From NCBI GenBank assembly GCA_002840555.1, contig PHBJ01000002.1, forward strand, positions 186,001 through 250,000: a stretch of 64,000 nucleotides of DNA, given 5' to 3'. A program made the translations under genes and the position numbers. This stretch comes from Deltaproteobacteria bacterium HGW-Deltaproteobacteria-13 (GTDB lineage Bacteria; Desulfobacterota; Syntrophia; Syntrophales; Smithellaceae). This document shows, one piece after another, positions 43,177 to 64,000 of this stretch; positions within the stretch are counted from its first letter, which is position 1, and each line of letters begins with the position of its first letter. The notes below the pieces were generated by a model. The model was not told where the DNA came from. It worked only from the letters and a program-made list of their open reading frames with translations, and did not search any database.

Positions 43177-43797
43177 TTAAATGCGCAGTCCATCGATAAA
43201 TCGATCCAGGGCCTCCATGTAAAGAGATTGATATTCATCCTTTGCCAGGATGGTCTTTTTCATTTTTTTCAACTGGATCATGCCATTGAAAGTGCCCCAG
43301 AGGATAATAGCCTGCCTTCTCGGGTCAACCGCTTTGAAATCTCCTTTGTCGATGCCTTCGCGAATCGCTGCGGTAAGGGTAAAAATGCTGGCATTGCCAT
43401 GCGCGTCGATCTCGTTTTTCAAGTCGGGAGGAAAGATCGTTTCCGGCGATGTTAAAAAATAATTGATGATGTCAAAATAGTTTTTATGCTTCTCGCTGAA
43501 TCGAAGATAGGCCATGGCGATCGATCGGATGTTCTCTTCAGGAGATGATTCATTTTTTATGGCCTTCCTGATTTTCTGATGCAGCAGTTCCAGTCCTTCG
43601 ACCTGAAGGGCCGCAAAAAGTTCTTCTTTGTCTTTAAAATAAAAGTAGATTGCCCCGACGCTCATTTCGGAACATTTTGCAATCTGATTAATGGAGGTAG
43701 CATTCAATCCCTTTTCCAGGAGAAGCGCTCTGGCCGTATCAAGGATATGGCTTTTACGCTGCTCCCTTTCTCTTTCCCGTCTTTCCTTGGCACCCAT
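43177..43797 (-). CDS. TetR-family transcriptional regulator
   Basis: A 206-aa repressor-type protein. The N-terminal helix-turn-helix is typical: ILDTARALLLEKGLNATSIN, then QIAKCSEMSVGAIYFYFKDKEEL. The C-terminal ligand-binding domain is divergent, as usual, so the inducer cannot be named. It lies at the far end of the long minus-strand run that holds the sulfonate/dsr genes, 146 bases after the small ORF; a perfect 16-bp palindrome (43888-43903) sits just upstream. It is a good candidate to control the neighbouring dehydrogenase-transporter-lyase genes, but this is inference. Confidence 0.93.
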   Translation of the reverse strand: MGAKERREREREQRKSHILDTARALLLEKGLNATSINQIAKCSEMSVGAIYFYFKDKEELFAALQVEGLELLHQKIRKAIKNESSPEENIRSIAMAYLRFSEKHKNYFDIINYFLTSPETIFPPDLKNEIDAHGNASIFTLTAAIREGIDKGDFKAVDPRRQAIILWGTFNGMIQLKKMKKTILAKDEYQSLYMEALDRFIDGLRI

Positions 43798-43887
43798 AAG
43801 TTCTCTGATCCTTCAATTATTTATTCCCTTGCGCGGGTTTTTTCGAGTCTTACCATCCGAAATTTTTTAAATCAAAATTTTTTTCTT

Positions 43888-43903
43888 TTCTCTCATGAGA
43901 GAA
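43888..43903. promoter_or_regulatory. 16-bp perfect palindrome, candidate TetR operator
   Basis: TTCTCTCATGAGAGAA reads the same on both strands and lies about 90 bases before the tetR start. With no loop and no T-run it cannot act as a terminator hairpin. TetR-family dimers commonly bind palindromes of this size, so autoregulation is plausible. Confidence 0.5.
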
Positions 43904-43943
43904 GAAAGTTTTCAACAGGTTAATGTTTTGCAAAAAACCGGCA

Positions 43944-44192
43944 TCACGATTGTTCCGGTTTTTCCACGGCTCTGATATCAAACCATGGGTTCTGCCTCTT
44001 GAAGGGGCAGAATGCTGCCTTGCAGTAACGAACAGGATCTTCGGAAGGAACTTTCACGGTTCGTGACTGAGCCTCCCGGTTTTTCTTTAGCCACTCCCGG
44101 GCCTCGGCAAGGGTATCCGCATATCCCGCAGAATAACTCGTCTTTCCGCGGCAATGGACAAACCCGTAAATAAGTTCGTATTGCTCAAGCAT
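43944..44192 (-). CDS. 82-aa hypothetical protein in the putative sulfonate operon
   Basis: An 82-aa protein beginning MLEQYELIYGFVHCRGKTSY with a central helical part (ADTLAEAREWLKKNREAQSR) and the Cys/Trp-containing end RYCKAAFCPFKRQNPWFD. It is not recognised. A clear AGGTG site precedes the ATG, and it starts 14 bases after the alcohol dehydrogenase gene, so it is probably translated from the same message. No export signal. Confidence 0.6.
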   Translation of the reverse strand: MLEQYELIYGFVHCRGKTSYSAGYADTLAEAREWLKKNREAQSRTVKVPSEDPVRYCKAAFCPFKRQNPWFDIRAVEKPEQS

Positions 44193-44206
44193 AATACACC
44201 TGCCAT

Positions 44207-45229
44207 CTAAAATTCCTCGCCTATCCTTAGCAGCACCTTTAAGGCCAGACCGGTATCGATTCTCTCTCTGTAGACGGCAGGTAATCGTTCCAATGGCTCA
44301 TAATCGGAAATCAATGGCCGGGCATCCAGTTTCCCTTCCGCCATCCATTGCAGACACTGAATATTTTCCTGATGTGTGTTGGAGATGGACGCCGTTAAAA
44401 GAATTTCCTTAAGATTGATGAGGAAAGGCGCGGCAATCGTGAGCGGGGTGAATATCATGCTCACAATGCAAATTTCACCGTTGTCCACCGACAGATTGAC
44501 GGCACGGTCGATGTTGCTCTTTACGCCCGAACATTCGAATATTTTCTGGAAACCGCCGGAAACAAGGGACAGCGCCTGCTGATCCGTATCGTTTTCGAGC
44601 GGATCGAAGACATGATCGGCGCCGTAAAGCAAACCGATATCGCGCTTTGATTTTACTGGCTCATAAAGCACAATGGGACTGTAGCCGAGAATCTTCAGCA
44701 GGCGCACAGTGCAGAGGCCGATCGGACCGCCTCCCATGACCAGGGCAGAACCTTTCTTATCGCTTGTACAATGAATGGCGTGCAGGGCGGAAGCAAAGGT
44801 TTCCGCTAAAGCAGCGTTGCGGGAATCGACTCCGGAAGGGATGGGAATCAGCATCTGCGGATAAACTTTAACATACTCGGCAAAACCGCCCGGCAAATCG
44901 CCAATCCCCGTGGTTCGCCTGTTTACCCGGCAAAGCTGCTCTTTGCCCGAAAGACAATTGACGCACTTTCCGCAGTAAGTGGGACGGATACAAACTCTTG
45001 TCCCCACGGCCGGTCCGTCAGCTTTCGCCCCTTTATCAACGACGACACCACTGATTTCATGTCCTATGATATACCCTTCGGCTAGAAGCCCTCCGGCCAC
45101 CAGGGAATGATCGGACCCGCAGAAACCTGTATTGGCAACCTTAACCAGGACTTCGTCCGGCGCCATAGGATAATCGGGAACTTCTTCATAAACCAGTCCG
45201 GCCGATTTCCGAAACACAACTGCTTTCAT
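44207..45229 (-). CDS. Zinc-dependent medium-chain alcohol dehydrogenase
   Basis: A 340-aa NAD(P)-dependent dehydrogenase of the MDR superfamily. The catalytic zinc ligands are Cys in NTGFCGSDH and the His-Glu of GHEISGVV. The structural zinc site is a four-Cys lobe, CIRPTYCGKCVNCLSGKEQLC. The nucleotide fold is VMGGGPIGLCTVRLL. It follows the MFS transporter by 29 bases. In the sulfonate model it would oxidise a hydroxylated C2 or C3 sulfonate, but the sequence gives only the enzyme class, not the substrate. Confidence 0.93.
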   Translation of the reverse strand: MKAVVFRKSAGLVYEEVPDYPMAPDEVLVKVANTGFCGSDHSLVAGGLLAEGYIIGHEISGVVVDKGAKADGPAVGTRVCIRPTYCGKCVNCLSGKEQLCRVNRRTTGIGDLPGGFAEYVKVYPQMLIPIPSGVDSRNAALAETFASALHAIHCTSDKKGSALVMGGGPIGLCTVRLLKILGYSPIVLYEPVKSKRDIGLLYGADHVFDPLENDTDQQALSLVSGGFQKIFECSGVKSNIDRAVNLSVDNGEICIVSMIFTPLTIAAPFLINLKEILLTASISNTHQENIQCLQWMAEGKLDARPLISDYEPLERLPAVYRERIDTGLALKVLLRIGEEF

Positions 45230-45258
45230 AATTTATTTTTCCTCATGAAATCATCTTT

Positions 45259-46551
45259 TCATTTTTCCCATTCCAATGTCACCTTTTCCACCTTGCTCAT
45301 GTCTTTTTTGTAAAAATAAGCTCCGGCAAAAAACATGATGGCCGAGGCCATAAGGAACACAGGCAGGATGGACATAGCCGCCTGGATGCCATAAAGGTCG
45401 GATATCCTGCCGATCACGATTGGCGCCATGGATGCTCCCAGAAGATTCTGAACAACGACGCAAATGGAATAGGAAATAGCCCTAAGGCCGGGGTGAATGA
45501 CTTCCTGCGTAACGGTAATAGCCGCCGGGGCAAAGGCGGAAGCGAGGATGCCCATACCCAGAAGAGTCAGATATTGCGCCTGTCCCTGCAGGAAGGAGAA
45601 AGCAATAAGAATGACAATGCCGTTGAGGGTAGTCGTAATTGCCGGAAACAGCAGTCTTGCCGTCACCCGTTTCTTAAACCACGTATCGGCCAGCCAGCCT
45701 CCCAGAGGCAGACCGATGATTGCCAATATCATGATGGCACTCACCTTGATTCCGGCCTCGCTGATGGGGATGCCTGTCGTACGATGAAAATATGTAGGCA
45801 GCCAAAAGATGATCGCATTGTTAACGAAGATGCAGCCGATGAAGCCCAGATCGGTCAGAATCAGAGAAGGTGTGCGCATAAATTCCCAAAAGATGTCCAT
45901 CTTGCTCATCTTAGCCCTGATTTGACTGCTCGTATCTTTTGTTTTAACCAGTTCCACCGTTTTGTAATCCTTGACGAAGAAAAATAGTATGGCCACAATC
46001 GCCCCGGGAATCGCTACCAGACCAAATGCATGCCGCCACCCCCAGTGTGCGGCAATAAAACCGCCGAGGCCAATGCCGACGGCTGTCCCGAGAGGAATAG
46101 AGATATTCCAGAACCCCATCATGCGTGAACGTTTTTCCTCTGGGAACAAACCGGAAAGCATGGCCGTACCGGCCGGAGCGTAACCGGCCTCACCGACGCC
46201 GATACAGGATCGAGCGGCAAGCAGTTGAGGGAAACTTCTGGTGAAAGCGCAAGCCACCGTGGCAAAGGTCCAAAGCAAAGCCATGACACCGATTGTCTTT
46301 TTCCGGCTCCAGCGATCAACAATGATGGAGACGGGGAAGACGAAAGCGACAATAGACCAGTAGACGACCGACATGAGCAGACCGGATTGAGTATCCGTGA
46401 GTCCCCACTCCTTCTGGATAAAGGGGGCCACGGAGGTGACAATCGTCCGGTCTATGTAATCGAAGAAATACAGCAGAAACAAGAGGGCGAAGATGTAATA
46501 TGCGCTCCGCGGGGACAACTTGTTTTCGTTTGCTCCAGTCATGCTTTTCAT
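45259..46551 (-). CDS. MFS transporter, putative organic-acid/sulfonate importer
   Basis: A 430-aa inner-membrane secondary transporter with about 12 helices. The MFS motif A region reads VDRWSRKKTIGVMALLWTFA, and ARSCIGVGEAGYAPAGTAML is typical of the anion:cation symporter and spinster-like branches that carry organic acids. The start has AAGGAG six bases upstream. It is 75 bases behind the ThDP enzyme gene and 29 before the dehydrogenase, so it most likely imports the substrate of this cluster. Transport of a sulfonate is inference. Confidence 0.92.
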   Translation of the reverse strand: MKSMTGANENKLSPRSAYYIFALLFLLYFFDYIDRTIVTSVAPFIQKEWGLTDTQSGLLMSVVYWSIVAFVFPVSIIVDRWSRKKTIGVMALLWTFATVACAFTRSFPQLLAARSCIGVGEAGYAPAGTAMLSGLFPEEKRSRMMGFWNISIPLGTAVGIGLGGFIAAHWGWRHAFGLVAIPGAIVAILFFFVKDYKTVELVKTKDTSSQIRAKMSKMDIFWEFMRTPSLILTDLGFIGCIFVNNAIIFWLPTYFHRTTGIPISEAGIKVSAIMILAIIGLPLGGWLADTWFKKRVTARLLFPAITTTLNGIVILIAFSFLQGQAQYLTLLGMGILASAFAPAAITVTQEVIHPGLRAISYSICVVVQNLLGASMAPIVIGRISDLYGIQAAMSILPVFLMASAIMFFAGAYFYKKDMSKVEKVTLEWEK

Positions 46552-46626: not shown

Positions 46627-48324
46627 TCAACTACATTTATATCCGCCGAGATTGGCCAGGGCGACACTGCCGGGGCTGATCACGGAAGGATCAACTTTAA
46701 CGTTGACGCAGGCCGTTTTTCCGGAGGCAAAAGCAGCCTCAAGCGCCGGCCGGATATCTTCCGGTTTCTCCACACAGACACCGAATCCGCCCATGACTTC
46801 CACCATCTTATGGTAATCTACCCAGCCCAGTTCGGTTCCGTTGGGAATATTGTGTCCCATACGCAGTGTCTGGCTGTGCATGATCATGCCCCAGGACTGG
46901 TCATTGGCGACAACAACGACGATGGGGAGCTTTTTACGGATCGCCGTATGAAATTCCATAAAGTTAAAGCCGACAGATCCGTCACCCATGATCAGTAAAA
47001 CGCGCTTGTCCGGGTGTTTCAGTTTGGCGGCGTTGGCATAAGGAATGCCGACAGCCAGGCATCCATAAAGGCCGTAATCCAGGTAGGTGCCGCCCTTTTT
47101 GATGGTCCGTGTCATGCCTGTCCAGGTTGATGTATCGCCGCCGTCAGCGACAACGATGTCATCTTCCCGATCCATAAAATCGTTAACCTCTTTAGCCAGC
47201 CTCATGGGATGAATGGGCAGGGTTTCGCATTCCCACATGGCTTTGGCATCTTTTTTGCCGTTTTCATCAGCCGCGCGAACCGTATCCACCCAGGGCTGAT
47301 ATTGTTTTTTCAGCGTGGCGCCTATTTTTTGTTCATCCAGAACGCCGTTGATCTCCTTCAAAAATGCCTTGAGGTCGCTGACAATTCCCAGATCAATGGT
47401 TCGATTACGTCCGATTTCGTCAGGCGCGATATCGACCTGAACGAATTTCGCCGTTGACGGGAAAATATCACCGAAGATATAGAAAAGACTCAGCCGTCCG
47501 CCAAGGAAAAGCACCATATCCGTGGTCATCAGCGTGATCATGGCCGAGCCGGGTCTGATGGCCAGAGAAGATTCAAAACAAAGGGGGTGCGTATCGGGAA
47601 TGACGCCCCTTCCCGCTCCTGATGTATATGCCGGTATGCCGATCTTTTCCACGAATTCGATAAATTCTTTTTCCGCATCTGAATACCACAAGCCGCTGCC
47701 GCCGATCACAATGGGGTTTTTTGCCGCCTTCAGAAGATCAACGACCTTCCGGGTATTGTCCCGATCCACGGGCTTGGATACGACCGTCGTGTGCATCTTT
47801 TTGACGATGGACATGTTCACTGCCGCGTTCAGGACGTTGCAGGGAAACTCGAGGTAAACGGGTCCCGGCCGTCCGCTCATGGCCGCGCGGAAGGCCATGT
47901 CGACATATTCAGGAATCCGCTCGGGGACGTTGCAGACCAGCGCTTTCTTAACCATGGGTTCGATGACGGGAAGCTGAGTCATGTCCTGAAGGTCCAGTTT
48001 TTCCGTAGCTTCAGTTCCCACACAGCCGGCAATAAGAATAACCGGTGCGTTGGAGAGCCTGGCGCTCGCGATTCCCGTGAGAGCGTTGGTAAATCCCGGT
48101 CCCGCCGTGACCATCACGACCGCCGGTTTCCGGTTCAATCTGGCCCAGGCCTCACCCATAAAGACAGCCGCCTGCTCATGGCGCGTGTCAAAGAGAGTAA
48201 TTTTTGTATTTTCCAGAAATTGGTAAATGGGAGTAATGTGTCCTCCGCTTAAAGTAAAAATATAATCTACATCCCTTTCAATCAAGGCATCTGCGACGAG
48301 CTTGCCTCCAATAATTTTATCCAT
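46627..48324 (-). CDS. Thiamine-diphosphate-dependent decarboxylase/lyase (acetolactate synthase-like)
   Basis: A 565-aa ThDP enzyme of the acetolactate synthase/oxalyl-CoA decarboxylase branch. The activating Glu is in DTRHEQAAVFMGEA, the central domain has NPIVIGGSGLWYSDAE, and the ThDP/Mg motif is MGDGSVGFNFMEFHTAIRKK ending NDQSWG. The FAD-binding features of true acetolactate synthases are not obvious. Beside xsc it is a candidate for making sulfoacetaldehyde, for example as a single-chain sulfopyruvate decarboxylase (known ones are often two small subunits); this is speculative. It could equally act on another 2-oxo acid or acyl-CoA. The start has a strong AGGAGG site. Confidence 0.88.
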   Translation of the reverse strand: MDKIIGGKLVADALIERDVDYIFTLSGGHITPIYQFLENTKITLFDTRHEQAAVFMGEAWARLNRKPAVVMVTAGPGFTNALTGIASARLSNAPVILIAGCVGTEATEKLDLQDMTQLPVIEPMVKKALVCNVPERIPEYVDMAFRAAMSGRPGPVYLEFPCNVLNAAVNMSIVKKMHTTVVSKPVDRDNTRKVVDLLKAAKNPIVIGGSGLWYSDAEKEFIEFVEKIGIPAYTSGAGRGVIPDTHPLCFESSLAIRPGSAMITLMTTDMVLFLGGRLSLFYIFGDIFPSTAKFVQVDIAPDEIGRNRTIDLGIVSDLKAFLKEINGVLDEQKIGATLKKQYQPWVDTVRAADENGKKDAKAMWECETLPIHPMRLAKEVNDFMDREDDIVVADGGDTSTWTGMTRTIKKGGTYLDYGLYGCLAVGIPYANAAKLKHPDKRVLLIMGDGSVGFNFMEFHTAIRKKLPIVVVVANDQSWGMIMHSQTLRMGHNIPNGTELGWVDYHKMVEVMGGFGVCVEKPEDIRPALEAAFASGKTACVNVKVDPSVISPGSVALANLGGYKCS

Positions 48325-48357: not shown

Positions 48358-49197
48358 TTATAATTCCATGCACTGACCGCCATCAATATTGATGGCCTGT
48401 CCCGTTATATATCGCGATGACTCGGAAGCCAGAAAGGCGACCAAGTCCGCAACTTCGCGGGGCGGTCCGATATATCCCAGCGGAATGGTCTTGCACATTT
48501 CTTTCTCACGTTCTTCAATGGTCGTACTGAAAAAAGAAGCTTCCAGCCCGAAACGCCATTTCTCCAGATCCGTGGCGATTTGTCCGGGACAAATGGCATT
48601 AACCCGGATGCCTGCGCCGCCCAGTTCTTTAGCCATGGTTTTGGTCAGCATGATCACCCCTGCTTTGGCGACGGCGTAAGCGCTGTTAAATATGGGTGGT
48701 ACCTTCCCCGCCCGCGATGCCGTATTAATGATGGCCGCGGGTTTGCCCGCCATTAACGGAATAACGGCACGCGAGATGCGGAAGACAGAAAACAGGTTGA
48801 CATCGATGGTTTTTATCCAGGCGGCTTCGTCATAACCCAAAACCGTATTCGGCACGCCGAATGACGCTCCCGCATTGTTGCAAAGAATATCAATGTGATC
48901 AAAGGCGCCTTTGATGGTCGCAATCATTGCGCCGATGGCTTTGTTGTCGGTAATATCAACAGCCACAGCCAGTGTTTTGACACTGTATGTCCCGGCCAAC
49001 TCGACGGCAATCGCATCCATCTCTTCACTCGTTGGAGACTTCAGGGACTCTCCGGGTGTTGGCGCTTTGCCCAGATCGGCAATAATCACGTTGCATCCGC
49101 ATGCGGCTAATTTTTCCGCAATGGCGTAACCGATGCCTGTTTTTTTGCCCGCTCCCGTGACAATCGCTGTTTTTCCTTTCAGGTCTTTATAAATCAT
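48358..49197 (-). CDS. Short-chain dehydrogenase/reductase
   Basis: A 279-aa NAD(P)-dependent SDR. Cofactor motif [20 protein letters not shown], then NNAGASFG, the catalytic Ser-Tyr-Lys as NTASRAG ... YAVAKAGV, and the C-terminal [16 protein letters not shown]. The ATG at 49197 follows GGAGG and lies inside the last codons of xsc (11-base overlap), so the two are translationally coupled. SDR-type sulfoacetaldehyde reductases (IsfD) and sulfolactate or sulfopropanediol dehydrogenases are known, so a redox step on the sulfonate is plausible but not proven from sequence. Confidence 0.92.
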
Positions 49198-50947
49198 GGA
49201 CGCCTCCTTTGTACCAGTTATGATGGTCCAGATGAGCATACTTGGGCAGGAATCGCGTCGGCAGAGCCAGCGCATCCTTCCGAAACGGCGGGGCCAGCTG
49301 CTTTCCGTCCACCAGGAATTCGAGAACGGTCGGCTTTCGGCTCTTCAGACAGGCATCGAAGGCCTCACGGATATCTTCGGGTCTGCTGACCTGGAAGCCA
49401 TTGGCCCCCATGGCTTTCGCAACGGGGACGAAACTCTTGGGCGTGGGGATATCGACACCGACAAAACGGTTGTTATAAAAGTCCACCTGGTTTTTGGCTT
49501 CCGCGCCCCACCACATATTCCTGAATACGCAGGCTACGACGGGAAGATTGTGCTCCACAGCGGTGCTGACCTCGTGAAGGCTCATTCCCCAGGCGCCGTC
49601 ACCGACGATGGCAATAACGGGCGCATCGGGACGGGCAAGCTGTGCCCCCAGTGCAGCCGGGTATGAAAAACCAGTATTCCCGAAGGTCAGGGCGGCAATG
49701 TGCCGGCGGGATTGATTGAACTTGAGGTAGCTGTTTGCTGTTGAGGCAACGTTTCCGATATCCGTGGTTACAATGGCATCCTCCGGCAGCATTCTTGAGA
49801 TTTCCAGCAATACGCGGCGGGGATTGATGGGATTGCCGTCGACCATTGCCAAATCAACGATTTCTTTTTCCCATTTCTTCTTTTCCTTCGCCACAGCCTC
49901 CAGACGCGCGGTAATGGGCTTGCGGCCTTTATCCGCGGTTTTCAGGCGTTTCAGGATTTCCACGGTAGCTTCCTTCGCGTCACCGATAATCCCGACCTCT
50001 ATGGGATGGGTCCGGGCAATGTGCTTCGGATTGATGTCGATCTGGATGATCTTGGCATTCTCCGGGAAGTAATTGATATCATACTGCGGCAGAGTTCCGA
50101 AAACGGAAAGTCTTGTGCCTATGGCCAGCATAACATCCGCCTTGGCCAGCGTCTTCATAGCCGCCTTGGAGCCCATATAACCGATGGGTCCGATAGACAG
50201 GGGGTGATTCCCGTAAAACGCATCATTGTGCAGATAGGTCACCGCGACCGGCGCAGTCAGGTGTTCGGAGATGGCTTTGACAACATCCAGCGCGTCGGCA
50301 TCGACCACACCCCTGCCGGAAACAATAACGGGGTTTTTAGCTTTGGACAAAAGTTCGGCAGCCCGATCCAGTTGTTCCATGGAACCGCAGCCCCGGGCGT
50401 CTACGCGGTATTGAGATGGTTTGAGGATAGCCTCTTCGATCTCTCCATAGAAATAATCACGGGGAATATCATAAAGGACGGCGCCCCGGTCGGCGTAGGC
50501 AATGCGGAAGGCCGTTCTCAAACAATCGGCGGCTCTTTTGGGATGGGGAACGCGGACGACTGCCTTCGTGACGGATTTGAAGACGGACATCTGATCGCAT
50601 TCCTGGAAACCGTCCCAGCCGATGGTCGGCGTGCCTGCCGATGGAGAAATGATAACCAGGGGGGTATGCCCCATGTTGGCCGCCGCCACCGAAGTGACCA
50701 TATTCGTAATACCGGGGCCGTTCTGACCCGTCACAACACCGCACCGGCCGGAAATGCGGCAGTAAGCGTCTTCCATATGAGCGGCGCTCTGCTCATGACG
50801 GACGGGAATGAACTTGATCCCCGCCGATGGAAAAAGATCGAGCATGTCCATAAAAGCAGAACCCACAATGCCGCAAACGTGATCCACGCCTTCGGCAAGC
50901 AGGGTTTCGACGATTGCTTCACTGGGTGTCATTTTAACTTTTTTCAT
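49187..50947 (-). CDS. xsc: Sulfoacetaldehyde acetyltransferase (Xsc-like)
   Basis: ThDP enzyme of 586 aa that in its family converts sulfoacetaldehyde plus phosphate to acetyl phosphate and sulfite. Features that fit Xsc rather than acetolactate synthase: [19 protein letters not shown] near the start, [13 protein letters not shown], the long block [39 protein letters not shown] with RFVGVD, and the end APPFRKDAL. The ThDP motif is [14 protein letters not shown] and the activating Glu is in VRHEQSA. The start is the ATG at 50947 behind GGAGGT; it overlaps ackA by 14 bases. Coupling to acetate kinase, which uses the acetyl phosphate product, strongly supports the call. Substrate remains to be tested. 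Confidence 0.8.
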
Positions 50948-54202: not shown

Positions 54203-54603
54203 TTATTTACCTCCCCGGGAACAACATGGCAGTTAAAGCAGGTTGGTTTGGCGCCGACATAGTCGTGGCACCGGGTGCAAAACTGTTCCCTGTTGCTGTG
54301 ACACTGAATGCAGGTGCCGGACAGGCTTTTTTCATAGGTGCGGCCGTCTTTTGCGGTATATTGACGATGGCCTTCACGAACGGCTTCATCTCTCCAGGCA
54401 TTAAGCATCTTCATATGATTGGCTCGCATGAATGAAGTATCTTCGACACAGCGTTTTTCTTTCATCTCATGAATGACGGGCGTATCAAGGCTCAGTACCG
54501 GAGGAGGAGTTTTGCTCCCCTTGCCGTACCAGAAGGGAAATGTGACCATAATCAAAAATATCACAAGTCCCAATGCTATCATGCCCCATTTATTTTTTTT
54601 CAT
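54199..54603 (-). CDS. dsrJ: Sulfite reductase-associated triheme cytochrome DsrJ
   Basis: A 134-aa membrane-anchored periplasmic cytochrome c with one N-terminal helix (about 7-26) and three heme-binding motifs: CIQCH (98-102), CTRCH (109-113) and CFNCH (122-126). This short triheme type with a membrane anchor is diagnostic of DsrJ. The exact role is debated; it transfers electrons with DsrO and DsrP. Its stop overlaps the dsrO start by four bases, so translation is coupled. Confidence 0.95.
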   Translation of the reverse strand: MKKNKWGMIALGLVIFLIMVTFPFWYGKGSKTPPPVLSLDTPVIHEMKEKRCVEDTSFMRANHMKMLNAWRDEAVREGHRQYTAKDGRTYEKSLSGTCIQCHSNREQFCTRCHDYVGAKPTCFNCHVVPGEVNK

Positions 54604-56251: not shown

Positions 56252-57241
56252 CTACTCCTTCTCCACCGGCAGGCAGGCCGTCTTCATTTTATCCCGAAAC
56301 TCGTCTTCATATTCTTCGTACGTATGGACTTTCACGGGAGCGTTCCAGGGATTGATGTGGCGCAGCATCCGGCTGTTGTTGGCCAGATTGCGGGTTGGGC
56401 TCATGAAGACGCCGCCCATGTGCATCAGTTTACTGAAAGGAAACCAGGCCATCAGGGTAAAAACAAAACAAAGATGAATATAAAAAACAACGCTGATATT
56501 TTGAGGCACGACCGGTGAAAAAATGATCCAGCTCATGGCCAGAGTTTTAATTTCGTTAAGATCAGCCGGGAAAAAGTGGCGCATCAACAGACCCGTCACC
56601 GCTATGCCGCAGATCAGCAGCAGTGAAAAATAATCGGTAAAGAGAGAAATATAACGCACTTGTGGAATGATTACCCGGCGCAGGAAAAGAAACGTCAGGC
56701 CAGCAAGCAGCGCGACATCACTTAAGTACAGAGCCGGAACGCCGATTTCCAGAAATCCGTCCACGGCGGAAAGCGCATTCACACAGGGGATGATCGGTTC
56801 CGTAAAAAAGCGCAAATGCCTCAGGATGATAATTAAAAGCGACCCGTGAAACAATAAACCGAAAAACCAGAGCCATTTGGCGCTGCCGTAAATAGGCCGC
56901 CCATCGATAATCTTCACCTCTGTATTTCGGAACAGAGACCGGAACAAAAATATCTCCTGGGCCATTCTTCCGAAGACTCCCCAGAAACCGGATGGGTTTT
57001 CCACCGGATTGTTCTTTATCCAAGGCAGTGTTTTCTCCTGACCGCATGTCGTGGGGATGCGGAAAGGCACAGGGGATTTCGCCCATTTCACTATCCGGTA
57101 AATAAAACCGCCCAAAAAGACAACAAAAACAAGGTATGGCGCAACAACCGTCAGGGCATAGCTCGCGGTATGGCTTGCCGCGATTCCCGCAGCCAGAAGG
57201 ACAAGTCCTGAAACGACAATGATGGATATTAATAAATTCAT
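56252..57241 (-). CDS. dsrM: NarI-like heme b subunit DsrM
   Basis: Membrane subunit of DsrMKJOP, 329 aa. It oxidises menaquinol and passes electrons to DsrK. Five to six transmembrane helices are seen with heme-ligand His in LLFHGSLLIIILRHLRF and LMHMGGVFMSP. The DsrM-typical C-terminus SPTRNLANNSRMLRHINPWN ending in HTYEEYEDEFRDKMK is present. It is two bases from dsrK, in normal M-K order. An extra M-like gene (58874-59818) lies further upstream. Confidence 0.93.
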   Translation of the reverse strand: MNLLISIIVVSGLVLLAAGIAASHTASYALTVVAPYLVFVVFLGGFIYRIVKWAKSPVPFRIPTTCGQEKTLPWIKNNPVENPSGFWGVFGRMAQEIFLFRSLFRNTEVKIIDGRPIYGSAKWLWFFGLLFHGSLLIIILRHLRFFTEPIIPCVNALSAVDGFLEIGVPALYLSDVALLAGLTFLFLRRVIIPQVRYISLFTDYFSLLLICGIAVTGLLMRHFFPADLNEIKTLAMSWIIFSPVVPQNISVVFYIHLCFVFTLMAWFPFSKLMHMGGVFMSPTRNLANNSRMLRHINPWNAPVKVHTYEEYEDEFRDKMKTACLPVEKE

Positions 57242-57266: not shown

Positions 57267-58877
57267 TCATTCCCATGACGGCTTCTCGCCGAAGCTTATA
57301 ATCGGTTTTTTCATCCCCTCGAACGCATTGACAATGAGTTCAACCAATCCGCCGTAATAAAGATGACTTCGTTCTTCTGCGTGATAGTAGTTTATAATAT
57401 CCCGGATGGCGCCTTTGCAGTTTGAGCAGGGAGCGCAGACATACTTGGGAACTGCTTGAGGTTCATCCTCAAAGGCATTCAGGATTTGGAGGAACTTCTT
57501 GCGCGAACTGACCAGATTTCGCCATTCGGCAAAGTTATATCCGGACATGATGGCAAAACCTGACCCGCCGCCGCAGCAATAGTTCTCAACACCGTGCGGC
57601 GTCATTTCCCGGAAACGCGGCGCAATTTTTCTTAAGATTCTTCTTTGCGGCTCCACAATACCCATCGCCCGGACTACATTGCAGGGGTCATGGAGCGTTA
57701 CCGGAAAATTGTTTTTGAGTGGATCGAATTTCAACTTTCCGTTCATCACTATGTTTTCCAATGTAACCATCGCCGATTCACGGGGAATATTGAGATCATC
57801 TGTCAGCAGTCGGTCGGCAATGACGGTCAGCGCTTTATGCGCGTGTCCGCACTCACCAATGACGATCTTTTTGACTTTAAGCCTTCGGGCGATATCGGCA
57901 TGTTTAACGGCAACGCGCGCGAATTGAACGTCGTCATACCACAGGCCGTAATTGACGGCGTCATAACCGGCAGCTTCGGACGACATTGTCCAGGAAATTC
58001 CCGCAGCCTGGAAAATGATCGCAAAAGCCCCGACATTTTCCGGCCATGCGAGCATCTCCCCGGCATTATGGATCAGCAGGATATCCGCACCTTCCACATC
58101 CCAGGGGATATCGACTTTATATCCCGTAATCTCTTCCATCTCTTCCTGGATGAATTCGGCGCTGTCTTTGGCAGCCATAGGATTCATCCCTGTCGAAGAG
58201 CCGACTTTCAGATGCTGGACCGAGCCCTTGTCGTGGATCTCCTTGGGGGCAATACCCATTTCCTGCGAGAAAAGCTTGCGGATTTCGTGATTGATGAGTC
58301 CGTTGTCTACGCCAATGGGGCAAACCATGGCGCAGCGCCGGCACAGCGTGCAGCGATAGGACAATTCAGCAAGGCGTGCGATGGTCTTCCAGTTCAGGTC
58401 GATATCGCCTGTCAGTTTGGCAGTAATTTTTCCGCCGGGTTTTAAATATTTCCTGTAAACCCTACGTAATACCTCCGACCGGAAGATGGGCCGGTAGATC
58501 TCCTTGCGGCCGCTCATTTCAAAAACAGGACAGGCATCGGAACAGGTATGACATTTGGCGCAATGCTCCATGGAAAGAAGCAGAGGCTGCAAAAAGGTCC
58601 AATTATTTTCCTTCTCAAATAGTTTTTTCAGGCCGGAAAGAAATTGCCGTACAAGAGCTTCTTCTTCCTCCTGATTTGCGGGCTTGGGAATGCCGATAGC
58701 CACGGTGTCGTCCAAAGAGGCTTCAATGTTACCGATCTTTTCCGGTTTAAGAGGTGTTAAAACGGTTTGGTTGAAATCTTCGTAAGGATAAGGCAGAGGC
58801 GTAAGCTCCCCCGGCGCAACATGACACAAACGGTCGGACTTGTCGGCTATATCAGATGGCTTTAATAAGGTTTTCAT
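57267..58877 (-). CDS. Second HdrD-like iron-sulfur protein (DsrK paralogue)
   Basis: A 536-aa cytoplasmic protein of the HdrD/DsrK/TmcB type. It has two [4Fe-4S] sites (CAKCHTCSDACPVF and CTLCRRCAMVCPIGVD) and CCG domains with HDPCNVVRAMG, YCCGGGSGFAIMSG and a distinctive CAPCSNCKGAIRDII. These differ from the DsrK next to dsrJOP, so it is a separate paralogue, perhaps closer to TmcB or HmeD types. The ATG at 58877 behind AGGGAG overlaps the preceding M-like gene by four bases (ATGA), making the two a coupled pair. Its disulfide or electron partner could be DsrC, encoded just upstream. Confidence 0.85.
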   Translation of the reverse strand: MKTLLKPSDIADKSDRLCHVAPGELTPLPYPYEDFNQTVLTPLKPEKIGNIEASLDDTVAIGIPKPANQEEEEALVRQFLSGLKKLFEKENNWTFLQPLLLSMEHCAKCHTCSDACPVFEMSGRKEIYRPIFRSEVLRRVYRKYLKPGGKITAKLTGDIDLNWKTIARLAELSYRCTLCRRCAMVCPIGVDNGLINHEIRKLFSQEMGIAPKEIHDKGSVQHLKVGSSTGMNPMAAKDSAEFIQEEMEEITGYKVDIPWDVEGADILLIHNAGEMLAWPENVGAFAIIFQAAGISWTMSSEAAGYDAVNYGLWYDDVQFARVAVKHADIARRLKVKKIVIGECGHAHKALTVIADRLLTDDLNIPRESAMVTLENIVMNGKLKFDPLKNNFPVTLHDPCNVVRAMGIVEPQRRILRKIAPRFREMTPHGVENYCCGGGSGFAIMSGYNFAEWRNLVSSRKKFLQILNAFEDEPQAVPKYVCAPCSNCKGAIRDIINYYHAEERSHLYYGGLVELIVNAFEGMKKPIISFGEKPSWE

Positions 58878-59818
58878 TTCATCTCCCTGGGAGCCGAAGA
58901 CGCTATGTCGCGCCATGATTTTTGTCCGTCCGCGCCGATATGTTTTGCCTTCCAAGTGGGTTTAAATTTCAAATTCATTATAACGGCAGATTCAATACTG
59001 CTGCCGCGCTTGTTGGGAATATCATCCCACTTGACGCTGTGATAGAGAAAATACTTCATAAACATATGAGACATATGGGTGAGTGGAATATAGGCAATTA
59101 AAAGAGAGGCCAGTACGATGGTGAATGCTCCGGGAATGGTTTGCCCCGGCGCATAAACAGGATCAAATGCGCCCGCGGTCAGAAGACCGAGAACATAATG
59201 TCTGGCACCGTTCAGAGAAGGATCACCGGAGAGCACGGTCAGGAGGGCGAAGACGAAGAACAGGAGGATGAAAAGGAGATTGAAATAATCGGCAAAGGTG
59301 GAATAGTTTCTCAGCTCCCGATCAGCCAACCGTTTGTATAACATAAACAGACCGCCTGCTATTCCTGCGGTTAGTCCTAGCCAGCCTGCGGCAGGTATAA
59401 GACCGTTCATTATCATTCTGATAATGCCGTCTGCGGCAAATGCCGTTCCCGCCCACAGGATGAAGAAGGCATGGCACAGTAAAAGAACCACAGTCGCCAT
59501 CATGAGATACAATCCCAGATGAAAAGGAAAGGATGCCATCCATAGACGTTTGTTTTCCTTCCAGAGGCCTCTGATAAGCAGTATTTCCGGCACCATATAT
59601 TTGAACTCGTTTAAACGCGAAGGTTCATAAGGGCTTCTCCACCAGTCCGATTTCTCCATGTAGGAACCGCCGTAAACATTTCTTTCTGCCATTTCATGCA
59701 TTACGGGGTAGATTTCCCAGCGGACATGCAACGGAAGGGTTAAATGCCTGTAAATCAGACGACCAATGGTCGCTGCAAACACGGCGATGCAAAAATAAGT
59801 TAAAATATAATATCCCAT
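58874..59818 (-). CDS. Second NarI-like heme b membrane protein (DsrM paralogue)
   Basis: A 314-aa membrane protein of the NarI/DsrM/TmcC type with about five helices and likely heme-b ligands in ASFPFHLGLYLMMATVVLLL and IPLTHMSHMFMKYF. A large hydrophilic N-terminal part (HEMAERNVYGGSYMEKSDWW) and the shared block NKRLWMASFPFH mark this subgroup. It pairs with the second DsrK-like gene and lies between dsrC and the canonical dsrMKJOP. The expected role is quinol oxidation feeding the HdrD-like subunit. Confidence 0.82.
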   Translation of the reverse strand: MGYYILTYFCIAVFAATIGRLIYRHLTLPLHVRWEIYPVMHEMAERNVYGGSYMEKSDWWRSPYEPSRLNEFKYMVPEILLIRGLWKENKRLWMASFPFHLGLYLMMATVVLLLCHAFFILWAGTAFAADGIIRMIMNGLIPAAGWLGLTAGIAGGLFMLYKRLADRELRNYSTFADYFNLLFILLFFVFALLTVLSGDPSLNGARHYVLGLLTAGAFDPVYAPGQTIPGAFTIVLASLLIAYIPLTHMSHMFMKYFLYHSVKWDDIPNKRGSSIESAVIMNLKFKPTWKAKHIGADGQKSWRDIASSAPREMK

Positions 59819-59931: not shown

Positions 59932-60252
59932 TCAGACGCAACCGGTCGGTTTCGAAAGACCCGCCAGTTTACAGCCGCCCTTGGCTGGCCCCGTGGGAAA
60001 AAGCTCATAGAGTTTCTTCATGTCGACACCGTTGTCCTTGCATACTTTGCGGACCATCGGAGCAATACCGAACTGCTTAAAATAATCCCGCAGATAATTA
60101 ATGATCTTCCAGTGCTCCTCCGTCAGAGGTCCTTCGATATCTTCAGTTTTAGCGTAGGCCTGGGCAAATTCTTCATTCCATTTGTCGAGTTCCTGAAGGA
60201 ACCCGTCTTCATCCACTTCATAAATTTTGCCTGCTAATTCTATTTGCGGCAT
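59932..60252 (-). CDS. dsrC: Sulfur-carrier protein DsrC
   Basis: A 106-aa sulfur carrier that takes sulfur from DsrAB as a trisulfide between its two conserved cysteines, reduced later by DsrMKJOP. The C-terminal arm ends GGCKLAGLSKPTGCV, giving Cys94 and the penultimate Cys105 separated by ten residues, so it is a true DsrC and not a TusE-type partial form. A strong GAGGAGG site precedes the start. It lies 37 bases after dsrN. Confidence 0.97.
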   Translation of the reverse strand: MPQIELAGKIYEVDEDGFLQELDKWNEEFAQAYAKTEDIEGPLTEEHWKIINYLRDYFKQFGIAPMVRKVCKDNGVDMKKLYELFPTGPAKGGCKLAGLSKPTGCV

Positions 60253-60289
60253 ATTAAAATCCTCCTCATTCTATCGATATCTTTTTTTA

Positions 60290-61750
60290 TCATAAACCCA
60301 CCCTTTCATTTTGCGCGAGACCCGACCTGTCCCTGATAAAATACTGGGTTTGATTTAATTTTGTTTGACGGTAATATCCGGCCCTGTCAATCAGAGCGCC
60401 GGCCCACTGTGGTGTTCCCAGTGCGTGCAGATGCGTAAAACCCGCCATAATATTTTTTCTGCACAGTCCGTCTCTTTGTCCGTCTATCCCGATTCCCCGT
60501 TCAACGCTGCAAGCCGTATAACTTTCACCCTCTTTTTGAGAAATGATTCTGCAGTAATGAAACTCATGACCGGTGATCTTCGTGCCTATGGGAAAGAAGG
60601 GGTTTTCTCTGTCTACGGCCAGGGTCGTATATCCGTGCCCCTGAGGCCGCTTCTCCATGGAAAATTTCACGGGCAGTGCGCCGGCCATCGGATAATGTTT
60701 GTCGCCGATGGTCAGGGATTCTCCCAGATAGATGAAACCTCCGCATTCGGCGTAAATCGGCAGACCCGCTTCAGCCGCATCCTTGAGCGAAAGGCGGAAG
60801 GTTTTATTTGCAGCAAGTTGACCTGCCTGAGTTTCAGGAAATCCTCCGCCGATGTACAAGGCATCGACAGGCGGTAAAACTTTTTCATCAAGAGCGCTGA
60901 TCATGACGACTTTCGCGCCCCGGTCAGTCAAAGCCTCAATATTTTCCTGATAATAAAACTGAAACGCAGAATCTTTAATCACGCCGATGGTTACGGGTTC
61001 TTCATCCGACCTCACTAACCGGACAGGTTTGGTAAAAGCATCTGTCTTCCAGGGTGATGCGCTTCGGGCAACGCGAAGCAGACCGGGAATATCCAGATAG
61101 TCAGAGGCAATGGCCCCTGCCCTTTCCAGGGCCTGACGCAGGCGGCTGTGTTCCTCGGGAGGGATCAATCCCAGGTGTCTCTGCACAAAGGGCAGATCCT
61201 GCAGGCGCGGCACTGTGCCGAACACGGGTAAACCCGTGTACTCTTCAATGGACTGGCGGATAACGGAAGCGTGACGACTTCCGTTCACCCGGCTTAAGAT
61301 GACGCCCCGGATATCTACTTCAGGGTCAAGGTTTTTGCAGCCCAGTACCATTGCCGCCGCCGTCCGTGTAACCTTATCGCAATCCACAATCAGAATAACC
61401 GGCGCGTGCAGAAGTTTGGCGAGCTCTGCAGTGCTGAATTCCCCTGCGGCGTTTACACCGTCAAAAAGTCCTCTGTTGCCTTCGATGATGGAAATGTCGC
61501 CTTTGGCGGCATGTCGTGAAAAGGAACGGACAACCTGATCCGCACCCATGAGATAGGTGTCCAGATTATAACAGGGACCGGATGCCGCCTGTGACAACCA
61601 GGCGGCATCAATATAATCCGGTCCCTTTTTAAAGGAGGCTACAGCGAGACCCTGCCTGCGCAGGGCCACGATCATAGCCACGGAGAGGGTTGTTTTTCCC
61701 GCGCCGCCCCGAAGTGCGGCTATCATTAAACGCGGACATTGTTGGTTCAT
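60290..61750 (-). CDS. dsrN: Siroheme amidase DsrN (CbiA/CobB family)
   Basis: Glutamine- and ATP-dependent amidase that converts siroheme to the amidated form used by dissimilatory sulfite reductase. A 486-aa protein of the cobyrinate a,c-diamide synthase family: P-loop LRGGAGKTTLSVA, the middle region IIEGNRGLFDG, and a class I glutamine amidotransferase domain with the nucleophile in YAECGGFIYLG and His in GFTHLHALGTPQW. Cobalamin CbiA is a close relative, but the place between dsrD and dsrC favours DsrN. It is 13 bases from dsrD. Confidence 0.88.
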   Translation of the reverse strand: MNQQCPRLMIAALRGGAGKTTLSVAMIVALRRQGLAVASFKKGPDYIDAAWLSQAASGPCYNLDTYLMGADQVVRSFSRHAAKGDISIIEGNRGLFDGVNAAGEFSTAELAKLLHAPVILIVDCDKVTRTAAAMVLGCKNLDPEVDIRGVILSRVNGSRHASVIRQSIEEYTGLPVFGTVPRLQDLPFVQRHLGLIPPEEHSRLRQALERAGAIASDYLDIPGLLRVARSASPWKTDAFTKPVRLVRSDEEPVTIGVIKDSAFQFYYQENIEALTDRGAKVVMISALDEKVLPPVDALYIGGGFPETQAGQLAANKTFRLSLKDAAEAGLPIYAECGGFIYLGESLTIGDKHYPMAGALPVKFSMEKRPQGHGYTTLAVDRENPFFPIGTKITGHEFHYCRIISQKEGESYTACSVERGIGIDGQRDGLCRKNIMAGFTHLHALGTPQWAGALIDRAGYYRQTKLNQTQYFIRDRSGLAQNERVGL

Positions 61751-61763
61751 GTTCCTTTACCTA

Positions 61764-62000
61764 TTAAGAGCAGGTCTCTTCCTTGGGAAAGAATTCGGCC
61801 AGCATAATGTATGTTGTGCTGCCGCTCGACCAGTACACCAGCACTCCTTCATCGAGAAGTACTTTTACGGCATCCTGAACAGCATGCCGGTCGTCATCGG
61901 GCAGCCACTTGGTGACGTCACGAATATAGAATTTTTTCTTGTCACCCCTGGATTTTTCATGAAAAAGATCAACGATCCGTTTTTTCAGGTCCTCACTCAT
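61764..62000 (-). CDS. dsrD: Sulfite reductase-associated protein DsrD
   Basis: A small winged-helix protein of 78 aa that stimulates DsrAB and is a marker of the reductive form of the pathway. Typical sequence: RIVDLFHEKSRGDKKKFYIR, then DVTKWLPDDDRHAVQDAVKV and VLVYWSSGSTTYIML. The ATG at 62000 sits behind GGGGGTGA, which contains the dsrB stop, so translation is coupled to dsrB. Oxidative (reverse) Dsr loci usually lack it, so here sulfite is reduced. Confidence 0.95.
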   Translation of the reverse strand: MSEDLKKRIVDLFHEKSRGDKKKFYIRDVTKWLPDDDRHAVQDAVKVLLDEGVLVYWSSGSTTYIMLAEFFPKEETCS

Positions 62001-62002
62001 GC

Positions 62003-63064
62003 TCACCCCCATTTGAACTGCGTCGATGTCCGGAAAGTTTCGGTTGCCATATCGTAGTCGTCGATATGCTTATCCGTAAACGGAATGCCGGTCAGGGTAA
62101 AAAACCTCTCCCAGCCTACACGCTCAATCCATTCGCCTACCCGTTCATGCTTTCTGGCGTGGCTCGCGTAGACCTCGATGATGTTCTTCACGGCCTCCAC
62201 AACTTCCGGCCAGCGCGGCGGATTGTTAGGCAGGAAAGGAATTGCCAGTTTGGAGAACTTGGGCGCACTCCTGGCATTGGAGACCTTCCCGCCGACCCAG
62301 ATGGAGATGCCGTCATTGTCAGGGTCCGCGATGGGCATGGCGGGACAGACGGTGTAACAGTTACCGCAGTACATGCACTTTTCGTCGTTGACCGTGACGG
62401 TCTTGGCTTTCATGTCACCCCGAATAGCGCCTGTGGGGCAGGAAGCTACCGTGGATGGAATTTCGCAGACATTCGGAACGCGGGTGTTGTCTGTCTTCGG
62501 AACGGTCCGGTGAATTCCCAAAATCGCGATGTCGGAACAGTGCACGGCGCCGCACATATTCAGGCAGCAGGCCAGAGCGATCCGCACGTGGTTCGGCAAT
62601 TTCATCGTGACAAAATAATCATAGATTTCATCCATCAGGGCTTTGACCGGTCCGGAAGCATCTGTTGCCGGCGTGTGGCAATGAACCCATCCCTGCGTGT
62701 GAACGATATTGGAAATGGCATGTCCCGTGCCGCCGACAGGATAATTTAGGCTGGTTAATTCCGCGATCAGGGGGTCGACTTTGTTTTTGTCGTCGAGAAG
62801 AAACTCGATGTTATGACGGCTTGTAAAACGCAGATAGCCGTCGCAGTATTTTTCTGCCAAGTCGCAGATTTCCCGGATATGATCCGTTGAAATCAGCCGC
62901 GGGGAGCCTGCGCGCACCGTGTAGAGCGCCTCTCCCGATTCCGCGATGTGCATCAGAACACCGGGTTTAAGAATTTCATGATACAGCCATTTCCCGTAAT
63001 TTCTGGAAATAACGGGAGGCAGCATGGTTTTATAATCAGGGGGGCCAATATCTGTTTTTGCCAT
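62003..63064 (-). CDS. dsrB: Dissimilatory sulfite reductase beta subunit
   Basis: With DsrA forms the alpha2beta2 siroheme enzyme that reduces sulfite by electrons passed to DsrC. A 353-aa protein with the siroheme/[4Fe-4S] motif [16 protein letters not shown] and the distal [11 protein letters not shown], and an inserted ferredoxin domain [12 protein letters not shown]. The C-terminal [17 protein letters not shown] is typical. It starts one base after the dsrA stop. Full length. Confidence 0.97.
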
Positions 63065-63065
63065 C

Positions 63066-64000
63066 TTACTTCACCTCCTTTTGAATTTCTTCGGGCCAGA
63101 AGAAGACATATGGATTGCTCCTCGGCGCCTTGACCATCTGAGGAACAGCGGGCAGACCGACGGCCTTAAGAAAGACCCGCATGCCTACTCGTTTGATCAG
63201 TTCACCTAAACGTTCCCGCGATTTGCCGTTTTCATCCCACCAGTCCTGAATACGCTCGATAAGGTCTTTCAATTCCGCATAGGGTGGTTCAAGTTTCATG
63301 AACGGCACAACGACCCAGGAAAGCAAAGCCCCCTGGACAATGGGCGCTTTGCCGCCGACGAGAATTGTCGCGCCTTTTTCCTTGCCCGGCCGTAAAGCCT
63401 TCGGCATGAGGTTGATGCAGTGCATGCAGCGGTTGCAGTCCCCATCATGGATTTTCAACGTCTTGCCGTCCCATTCCATGCATTTCGTCGGACAGAGATC
63501 GCAGACCTCCTTTTGAATGTCCAGATCCGATCCGGCGTAGATGGTGACTTCCGCCGGATTGATGAGAATCTTCCCCTTCCATGTCCCGATAATGGAAAAA
63601 TCGGATCGGGCGATGGAAGCAACGCAGTCATTGGGACAGGCGGATACCTTTATCTTGAATTTGTAGGGAAACATGGGACGATGGATCTTATCCTGAAATT
63701 CCATGGTAAGATTGTAGCAGACATCCAGGCTGTCAATACAGGCCCACTCGCAACGACCGGGTCCCACACAGGCGCTGGGCGTCCGGAGAGCGGAGCCGGA
63801 GCCGCCGAGATCAAAACCCGCGGCGGAAAGATCGTCAAAGCAGGGTTGGAGGTGTTCTGTTTTTGTACCCAGAAGAATAGCATCACCCGTGGAACCGTGC
63901 ATATTGGTCAGACCGCTGCCATGCTTGTCCCAGACGTCGCAGAGTTTCCGCAGGGCGTCTGTTTTATAAAACCACCCCGTGGGATGGTTTACCCGTAAGG
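63066..64000 (-). CDS. dsrA: Dissimilatory sulfite reductase alpha subunit, N-terminus beyond the window
   Basis: Catalytic partner of DsrB. The frame stays open to the right-hand edge, where the first visible residues are [20 protein letters not shown], so about 120 N-terminal residues are missing. Visible features are [32 protein letters not shown] and [17 protein letters not shown] for siroheme and cluster binding, and a ferredoxin insert with [11 protein letters not shown] and [12 protein letters not shown]. The ATG at 63902 is internal and is not a start. It opens the visible part of the long minus-strand run. Confidence 0.96.

Follow-up and report, generated by a model that had tools for sequence, protein, structure and literature searches.

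A dsr block joined to ackA, xsc and a second thiamine-diphosphate enzyme in a Smithellaceae-type bacterium: a candidate unit for sulfonate respiration

We analysed a stretch of 64,000 nucleotides (the window) from Deltaproteobacteria bacterium HGW-Deltaproteobacteria-13 (assembly GCA_002840555.1; lineage Syntrophales, Smithellaceae), spanning positions 186001–250000 of contig PHBJ01000002.1. G plus a number denotes a genome examined and L plus a number a locus or stretch; the host is G000 (3.51 Mb, 29 contigs, 100% complete) and the contig is C25. From position 43177 to the window end, 19 minus-strand genes follow one another in the order dsrA-B-D-N-C-(M2K2)-M-K-J-O-P-ackA-xsc-SDR-ThDP2-MFS-ADH-tetR (Table 1), where SDR is a short-chain dehydrogenase/reductase, ThDP2 the second thiamine-diphosphate (ThDP) enzyme, MFS a major facilitator superfamily transporter and ADH a zinc-dependent alcohol dehydrogenase. 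Profile searches against curated (NCBIfam/TIGRFAM) cut-offs and Pfam bear out the genes, strand and order given in a preliminary description of this DNA, and its picture of a tight, one-strand block holds. With start codons checked, dsrP and ackA are 10 bases apart, ackA and xsc overlap by 14 bases, and xsc and the SDR gene by 11, as it had stated. Distances between genes range from -14 to 113 bases, the single wider one being the 409 bases between ADH and tetR, and the 5' end of dsrA lies 256 bases past the window end. Terminator-like sites on the minus strand of 44001–64000 are all intragenic, with none in gaps, and promoter and terminator scans gave counts close to the shuffled mean. The GC content of the block is 51.2%, compared with 43.1% for window positions 1–43000 and 45.7% for 78 kb of other stretches of the same genome.

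The xsc product scored 847 bits against an equivalog cut-off of 676, and none of 14 control genomes had a match above that cut-off. In a phylogenetic tree, the 17 Xsc sequences fall into a single clade (support 100/100), whether taken from the window, its relatives, Firmicutes or Desulfovibrio-type loci or from the annotated xsc of a Caballeronia plasmid; acetolactate synthases are placed elsewhere. Window residues Glu483 and Gln115 correspond to E510 and Q125, given as catalytic residues of Xsc in PMC13327070, and both are kept in 17/17 sequences; in Caballeronia Xsc both numbers are shifted by 15 from the published ones. The preliminary description would have abandoned its Xsc call had the protein fallen in an acetolactate-synthase clade; score and tree rule out such an enzyme, and on its sequence we regard the window Xsc as a real sulfoacetaldehyde acetyltransferase. 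Among the loci kept (see below), its nearest named relatives (84–94% identity) come from metagenome-assembled genomes (MAGs) whose titles name Syntrophaceae, Smithellaceae, Smithella or delta proteobacterium, in keeping with a Smithellaceae-type host.

Table 1. Genes of the block, listed by position in the window
Gene	Coordinates	Strand	Basis
tetR-family regulator	43177..43797	-	PF00440 57 bits; in G038, G057 and G042 the gene preceding dsrA
Zn-dependent alcohol dehydrogenase (ADH), probable second sulfonate-alcohol dehydrogenase	44207..45229	-	PF08240 + PF00107; near MFS/ThDP2 in relatives
MFS transporter, probable sulfonate importer	45259..46551	-	PF07690 197 bits
ThDP2, candidate C-C lyase making sulfoacetaldehyde	46627..48324	-	PF02776 + PF00205 + PF02775; own clade; His29/Glu50/Gln113/Ile481; fold
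SDR dehydrogenase, steady ThDP2 partner	48358..49197	-	PF13561 188 bits; adjoins ThDP2 in G030, G048, G054 and G056 too
xsc, sulfoacetaldehyde acetyltransferase	49187..50947	-	TIGR03457 847 bits (cut-off 676); Xsc clade 100/100; Glu483/Gln115
ackA, acetate kinase	50934..52211	-	TIGR00016 473 bits (cut-off 293)
dsrP	52222..53415	-	NF045798 485 bits (cut-off 350)
dsrO	53423..54202	-	NF045797 301 bits (cut-off 200)
dsrJ	54199..54603	-	NF038038 160 bits (cut-off 100)
dsrK	54648..56249	-	NF045796 743 bits (cut-off 400)
dsrM	56252..57241	-	NF038037 468 bits (cut-off 300)
dsrK-like second copy (dsrK2)	57267..58877	-	NF045796 346 bits, below cut-off 400; start is an ATG inside open reading frame 57267-58955
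dsrM-like second copy (dsrM2)	58874..59818	-	PF02665 32 bits; NF038037 only 21 bits
dsrC	59932..60252	-	TIGR03342 114 bits (cut-off 53.5); PF04358 125 bits
dsrN / cobB-type amidase	60290..61750	-	NF002204 440 bits (cut-off 254)
dsrD	61764..62012	-	PF08679 63 bits (cut-off 24)
dsrB	62003..63064	-	TIGR02066 530 bits (cut-off 341)
dsrA	63066..64000	-	TIGR02064 568 bits (whole gene); in-window part 397 bits (cut-off 393)

The reductive Dsr gene set is complete at the locus (DsrAB, DsrC, DsrD and DsrMKJOP). The absence of sat and apr, previously noted for the window, extends to the genome: sat had no match anywhere in G000, and the best aprA match reached 24.7 bits (cut-off 642), so that G000 lacks the Sat and AprA pair by which we recognised sulfate reducers. 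Across a set of 60 genomes, own included, dsrA scored above its cut-off in 16 and aprA in G046 alone. Other known sources of sulfite were also sought. Taurine transaminase (Tpa) gave no G000 match at E<=1e-60, the query being an L061 aminotransferase called Tpa from its position beside xsc. Four glycyl-radical enzymes are encoded in G000, all far below the HpsG and HpfG cut-offs, with no IslA model among the models listed. They lie on contigs C6, C8 and C3 (L165–L168), and three of the four carry long N-terminal extensions; that of L168 scores above the activating-enzyme model cut-off (205 vs 174 bits), as if the enzyme were fused with its activase. The second DsrMK-like pair (57267–59818) differs strongly among relatives, with 32% and 61–63% identity in G027/G035 compared with 64% and 86% in G023, as though this pair had been exchanged on its own, apart from the other block genes.

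The preliminary description had proposed a survey of other genomes for the same gene order. The order does recur in other assemblies, and the block is therefore not a chance arrangement. The window order from dsr to ADH stands on one contig in G023, G027, G033 and G035, and also, without a detected MFS, in G031 and, with a broken xsc and no ackA, in G020; in G024 two block halves stop at contig ends within dsrN. The tetR gene follows ADH in G020, G023, G024 and G033. Three genomes from two other families (G038, G057 and G042) have a second arrangement on one strand, with SDR-ThDP2-MFS-(ADH)-tetR before dsrA and ackA-xsc after dsrP; G042 has no close ADH in this upstream feeder. G030 reads dsrP-ackA-SDR-ThDP2-MFS-ADH-tetR, with the xsc slot empty. 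Among 16 genomes of the same genus, G004 is the only one with a trace of the block: dsrMKJOP-ackA-xsc up to a contig end, with no dsrA match. A gene of ~555 aa, absent from the window, lies between dsrP and ackA in G004, L044 (G035), L045, L047 (G031) and L056 (G033), and between dsrP and xsc in L051. In the three scanned (L044, at 6963-8627; L056; and L151, which is G004, at 4582-6282) it encodes a sulfur-type flavoprotein resembling CoA-disulfide reductase, below the family cut-off, and both of those run against Pfam have a C-terminal rhodanese domain.

Counting dsrA and xsc each above cut-off, 11 of the 60 genomes have both, five dsrA alone (G025, G045, G046, G050 and G020), three xsc alone and 41 neither (Fisher p=3e-6, kinship ignored). 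ThDP2, searched with alignment A1 at E<=1e-150 and counted at >=789 bits, is present in 14/14 genomes with xsc and in 5/46 others (G020, G021, G048, G054 and G056; 19 ThDP2 genomes in total; p=7e-10, kinship ignored). A weaker ThDP2-like group (533–626 bits) is found in genomes with and without xsc alike. G021 has SDR-ThDP2-MFS-SDR-tetR (L149–L150) beside a ThDP enzyme 47% identical to Xsc, which scores 672 bits, just below the Xsc cut-off, and is matched from model position 43; no dsrA was found in that genome.

Looking beyond Syntrophales, we scanned genome contigs with Xsc and kept 80 of 129 related loci, counting genes within the fetched flank by tblastn with identity thresholds (Tpa as at least 40% identity to the L061 or L064 aminotransferase; Dsr and Asr via DsrA/B/K and AsrA/C only). 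ThDP2 or its Firmicute relative occurs in 24 of the 80 loci, Tpa in 38 and both in one (L061). Sixteen loci carry dsrA/B/K or asrA/C; 14 of these have ThDP2 and none has Tpa, and in the remaining two (L059 and L060, which are G057 and G042) ThDP2 lies past the flank, beyond dsrA. L048, L053, L107 and L112 carry dsr genes outside the DsrA/B/K count; ThDP2 was seen in L112 alone, and the other three contigs break off beside xsc or SDR. The Firmicutes have a ThDP2 relative of 35–39% identity beside xsc, together with dsr or asrABC. Syntrophomonas-type loci L085 and L087 read AOR-MFS-HADH-ThDP2-xsc-SDR-(tetR reversed)-dsrM2K2-dsrAB-dsrMK, where AOR is aldehyde ferredoxin oxidoreductase (L087 partly by eye). 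In L103 and L106, AsrA, AsrB and AsrC score above their cut-offs beside xsc-ThDP2-HADH, and L115, from a horse-feces MAG, has xsc-ThDP2-HADH with an Asr pattern by tblastn. The Syntrophales Xsc belong to a mixed group (89/95) that also takes in Xsc of Peptococcaceae, of Desulfovibrio-type loci and of others. Since this group is separate from the ThDP2-bearing Firmicute Xsc, ThDP2 and Xsc may have been combined on more than one occasion; the fork between the groups is not strongly supported. A pyridoxal-phosphate decarboxylase related to MfnA recurs in xsc flanks (L049, L057, L058, L061, L062 and L065); that of L061 is below the tyrosine decarboxylase model cut-off, and the enzyme may supply taurine by decarboxylating cysteate.

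The most unusual part of the block is ThDP2 with its dehydrogenases, which the preliminary description listed without interpretation. ThDP2 is a single 565-aa chain with three Pfam ThDP domains, and it scored below the cut-off of every NCBIfam model listed (25 of 51 matched; best PRK05858, 411 vs 587 bits). In the tree, 22 ThDP2 sequences form one clade (94/86), which lies towards E. coli Oxc and is separate from Xsc and from most acetolactate-synthase-like sequences; one such sequence from G000 (L004) stands near the clade on a long branch, and with long branches the deeper placement of the clade is unsure. Residue 29 is His in 22/22 ThDP2 sequences and 0/26 others. The tree script required GGH within the first 40 residues of ThDP2 rows, which excludes Xsc rows; none of the 22 named loci was lost by it, and His29 is invariant in the unfiltered alignment A1 too. 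Residue 481 is Ile in all 22, where Xsc has Glu, and residue 113 is Gln, as in Xsc. Tree, cut-offs and the absence of the Xsc Glu rule out a second Xsc or an acetolactate synthase. ComDE was also rejected, ThDP2 being a single chain rather than two short ones, with a ComE match of E=7e-4 over 113 residues and a ComD match of E=6.4. An AlphaFold model (pLDDT 83.6, pTM 0.87) found its best fold matches among 2-hydroxyacyl-CoA lyases (HACL), benzaldehyde lyase (BAL), formolase and Oxc, at 26–31% identity; the Z values of 39–43 include acetolactate synthases as well, so the fold does not tell the function. ThDP2 shares the catalytic Glu50 with BAL, formolase and HACL, and both His29 and Gln113, present in 22/22 sequences, with BAL in a HMMER alignment.

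We take BAL His29 to serve acyloin cleavage, and Ser at BAL position 28 presumably favours decarboxylation. PDB entries include the BAL mutant A28S with benzoylphosphonate, and an entry whose title names H28A/N484A indicates that CDH probably has a residue like His29. Given the residues shared with BAL and the roles we assume for BAL His29 and for Ser at position 28, a C-C lyase is modestly favoured over a decarboxylase for ThDP2.

The partners of ThDP2 are partly constant and partly exchanged. An SDR accompanies it in the Syntrophales loci read; in Firmicutes an HADH-type dehydrogenase accompanies the ThDP2 relative, in some loci with a different SDR as well. The second dehydrogenase varies, being ADH in many loci and a different SDR, 37–40% identical to the Syntrophomonas SDR, in G017 and G021. 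Carriers vary too: MFS, SBF (G017), a sodium:sulfate symporter (G056) and, before xsc, a GltS-like carrier (L103), with a TauE/SafE-type exporter near ThDP2 in G048. AOR genes lie near ThDP2 in G048, G056, L085, L087 and L112, a placement that fits aldehyde release by ThDP2, and beside HADH in L061; the four AOR genes of G000 are all away from the block.

From the gene families and their order, conservation and co-occurrence, we infer that the block probably works as a single unit by which a bacterium unable to reduce sulfate respires or dismutates sulfonates. The MFS carrier would import a small hydroxy-sulfonate, most likely of three carbons (dihydroxypropanesulfonate (DHPS) first, sulfolactate second), and the SDR and Zn-ADH would oxidise the carbon adjacent to its sulfomethyl group. 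By mechanistic reasoning, -O3S-CH2-CHOH-R oxidised at C2 would give a ketone that a ThDP enzyme could cleave to sulfoacetaldehyde, with CO2 leaving where R = COOH (sulfolactate) and formaldehyde where R = CH2OH (DHPS). That the feeder makes sulfoacetaldehyde in this way, ThDP2 cleaving the C-C bond to sulfoacetaldehyde and a one-carbon product, is somewhat better than an even guess. Xsc would convert sulfoacetaldehyde and phosphate to acetyl-phosphate and sulfite, AckA would make ATP and acetate from acetyl-phosphate, and DsrABCD with DsrMKJOP would reduce sulfite to sulfide. The sequential action of Xsc, AckA and Dsr, already put forward in the preliminary description, is likely; all score above curated cut-offs. 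Electrons would come from the dehydrogenase steps, and from an outside donor as well where the substrate is not DHPS.

Redox arithmetic, with eight sulfonates balanced to acetate, CO2 and sulfite, bears on the substrate. DHPS yields 6 [H], exactly what sulfite reduction needs and the only exact balance among the eight; 3-hydroxypropanesulfonate yields 8 [H], sulfoacetaldehyde 0 and sulfoacetate -2. The module had been called self-contained, which holds for DHPS and not for sulfolactate, isethionate, taurine or cysteate, each of which yields 2 [H] and falls 4 [H] short. The balance is arithmetic and no evidence of substrate use, and DHPS is a tentative choice of substrate, less likely right than wrong. 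A more specific version, which we offer as speculation, is that DHPS is dismutated by an undescribed pathway with no outside donor or acceptor. The two dehydrogenases would produce 3-hydroxy-2-oxopropanesulfonate, and ThDP2, as a new family of ThDP acyloin lyases, would split it to sulfoacetaldehyde and formaldehyde; the sum would be DHPS -> acetate + CO2 + H2S + H2O, six electrons reducing the freed sulfite exactly. ThDP2-Xsc would then be a module whose partner is Dsr in Syntrophales and Syntrophomonas, and AsrABC in Clostridia-type loci.

The same genes could instead serve sulfolactate, with SDR or ADH forming sulfopyruvate, ThDP2 decarboxylating sulfopyruvate as a single chain instead of ComDE, and Xsc following; CO2 would leave and four electrons per sulfonate would come from an outside donor. 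This parallels the SlcC/ComC-ComDE-Xsc route as outlined in PMC11382572, requires no formaldehyde handling and suits the presence of a decarboxylase, Oxc, among the closest folds. However, ThDP2 keeps His29, as do the C-C lyase BAL and probably CDH, and its similarity to ComE is weak and to ComD nil; we consider the sulfolactate route unlikely, if a serious contender. Isethionate is a common C2 sulfonate, and the simplest chemistry would be its direct oxidation to sulfoacetaldehyde by SDR or ADH, leaving ThDP2 for another purpose, such as acetoin-type products. This would leave unexplained both the ThDP2 found with every counted xsc among the 60 genomes and its recurrence beside Xsc in Firmicutes, which makes the isethionate route improbable.

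Several observations weigh against a single unit with a C-C lyase feeder using DHPS. The association counts ignore shared descent. MFS was not detected in G031, tetR was not detected behind ADH in G035, L045 and L054, and in L043, L051 and G020 no ackA was detected in the interval from dsrP to xsc. G030 has its xsc on another contig, near a class-III aminotransferase. G017, G029 and G032 (95, 87 and 84% complete) have xsc and SDR-ThDP2 with no dsrA match, so the feeder does not need Dsr; ackA precedes xsc in G017 and (cut) in G032, and the G029 contig starts at xsc. Conversely, G048, G054 and G056 have SDR-ThDP2 with xsc not above cut-off, and G025, G045, G046 and G050 have dsrA with no xsc trace. 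As to ThDP2, the position of BAL Thr481 (Q113 and T481 being tabulated for BAL in PMC13327070) is Ile in 22/22 sequences, and the top whole-sequence matches are HACL and Oxc, not BAL (257 vs 247 bits). As to DHPS, the SDR is 31% identical (over 194 aa) to HpsO of Leisingera and the ADH 28% to HpsP, a superfamily-level likeness only, so that the case for DHPS comes from logic and arithmetic.

Seven genomes with the feeder and no dsrA (G054, G048, G056, G017, G029, G032 and G021), the four with dsrA and no xsc, and a block GC of 51% against 45.7%, which suggests acquisition, would also suit two neighbouring operons, one for respiring sulfite from elsewhere and one an unrelated carbon-catabolic set with Xsc, joined by chance or by joint transfer. 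Against this stand the 10-base gap and the overlaps, gaps free of minus-strand terminator-like sites throughout 44001–64000, the maintenance of the genes together in two orders (G038, G057 and G042 vs the window order) and the renewed pairing with dsr or asr in Firmicutes. Two separate operons are thus a rather remote explanation, and we retain the single unit.

The comparison with Hps drew on six plasmid regions, among which only L176 (Leisingera) has hisD-SDR-ADH-comDE. In the DHPS pathway of HpsN/O/P/U, with an Xsc variant reported in Alphaproteobacteria (PMC11382572), HpsO, HpsP and HpsU share their Pfam families with the SDR, Zn-ADH and MFS of the block, and the L176 cluster shows the same likeness. 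Direct HpsO/HpsP orthology, considered because of these shared families, fails on the identities to L176: three unrelated SDRs score above the block SDR against Leisingera HpsO. The sole PF00815 gene of G000, on another contig, is 33% identical to Leisingera HpsN and ~49% to annotated HisD, so there is no spare HpsN candidate, and a search with the L176 SDR gave nothing further. Unlike the hps pathway, the block has neither an HpsN candidate nor ComDE; the low SDR and ADH identities and the missing HpsN indicate that it is not the Hps pathway.

The union of Xsc with Dsr had been presented as a distinct design, on the premise that known sulfite reducers use glycyl-radical lyases. That claim is not supported. 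Taurinivorans muris respires taurine via Tpa-Ald-Xsc, AckA and DsrAB-DsrC, with donors such as lactate, pyruvate and formate and, as described in PMC10507020, no growth on taurine alone, and an Xsc-AckA-Dsr taurine respiration is proposed for Desulfotomaculum ruminis in PMC3569383; the core idea is therefore not new. As in the proposed unit, in T. muris Xsc frees sulfite, AckA makes ATP and Dsr reduces sulfite. Unlike G000, T. muris is fed by Tpa and an outside donor; in G000 a single block unites dsr, ackA and xsc with a feeder of ThDP2 and dehydrogenases. The glycyl-radical lyases IslA and HpsG, as presented in PMC6386719, likewise deliver sulfite to Dsr, by different chemistry. Desulfonispora thiosulfatigenes ferments taurine (as cited in PMC6386719 and PMC10507020). 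It is a strict anaerobe with Xsc, and its product is thiosulfate. We know of no link between that organism and a ThDP2 feeder.

Apparently new are the feeder (SDR, ThDP2, MFS and Zn-ADH), its single-block linkage to Dsr, the host group and the swap between Dsr and Asr; the literature searched, outside which lie most subscription journals and preprints, held no report of xsc adjoining dsr in Syntrophales or Syntrophomonas and none of a ThDP lyase feeding Xsc. DsrABD is reported in a Smithella bin (PMC5946492), and Syntrophales holds a DsrAB lineage listed in PMC10591310 as uncultured at family level. The proposed unit would give the dsr genes of Syntrophales without apr a concrete job. If it is correct, relatives of classic syntrophs could turn to sulfide production on sulfonates in sulfate-poor methanogenic systems, and ThDP2 beside xsc would mark sulfonate respirers missed by Tpa and IslA markers, including those with Clostridia-type AsrABC loci.

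Upstream of dsrA, a TTGACA promoter-like stretch is common to G000, G033, G020 and G024 (by eye). A shared palindromic operator, sought there in 12 relatives, was rejected, a perfect 7-base inverted repeat occurring in G031 only. Directly upstream of dsrA on the same strand of C25 is a PF03601 (YeiH-like) membrane protein gene (L010:1497-3074), whose relatives (71–86% identity) precede dsrA in G050 and, split, in G025, and ackA-xsc in L058; the protein is possibly a sulfite or sulfonate carrier. Genes for cytochrome c assembly (PF01578) and ResB adjoin the dsr block (L010:3383-5613) and perhaps serve the DsrJ cytochrome. Outside the block, window positions 24653–27532 encode a large PAS-GGDEF-EAL signalling protein.

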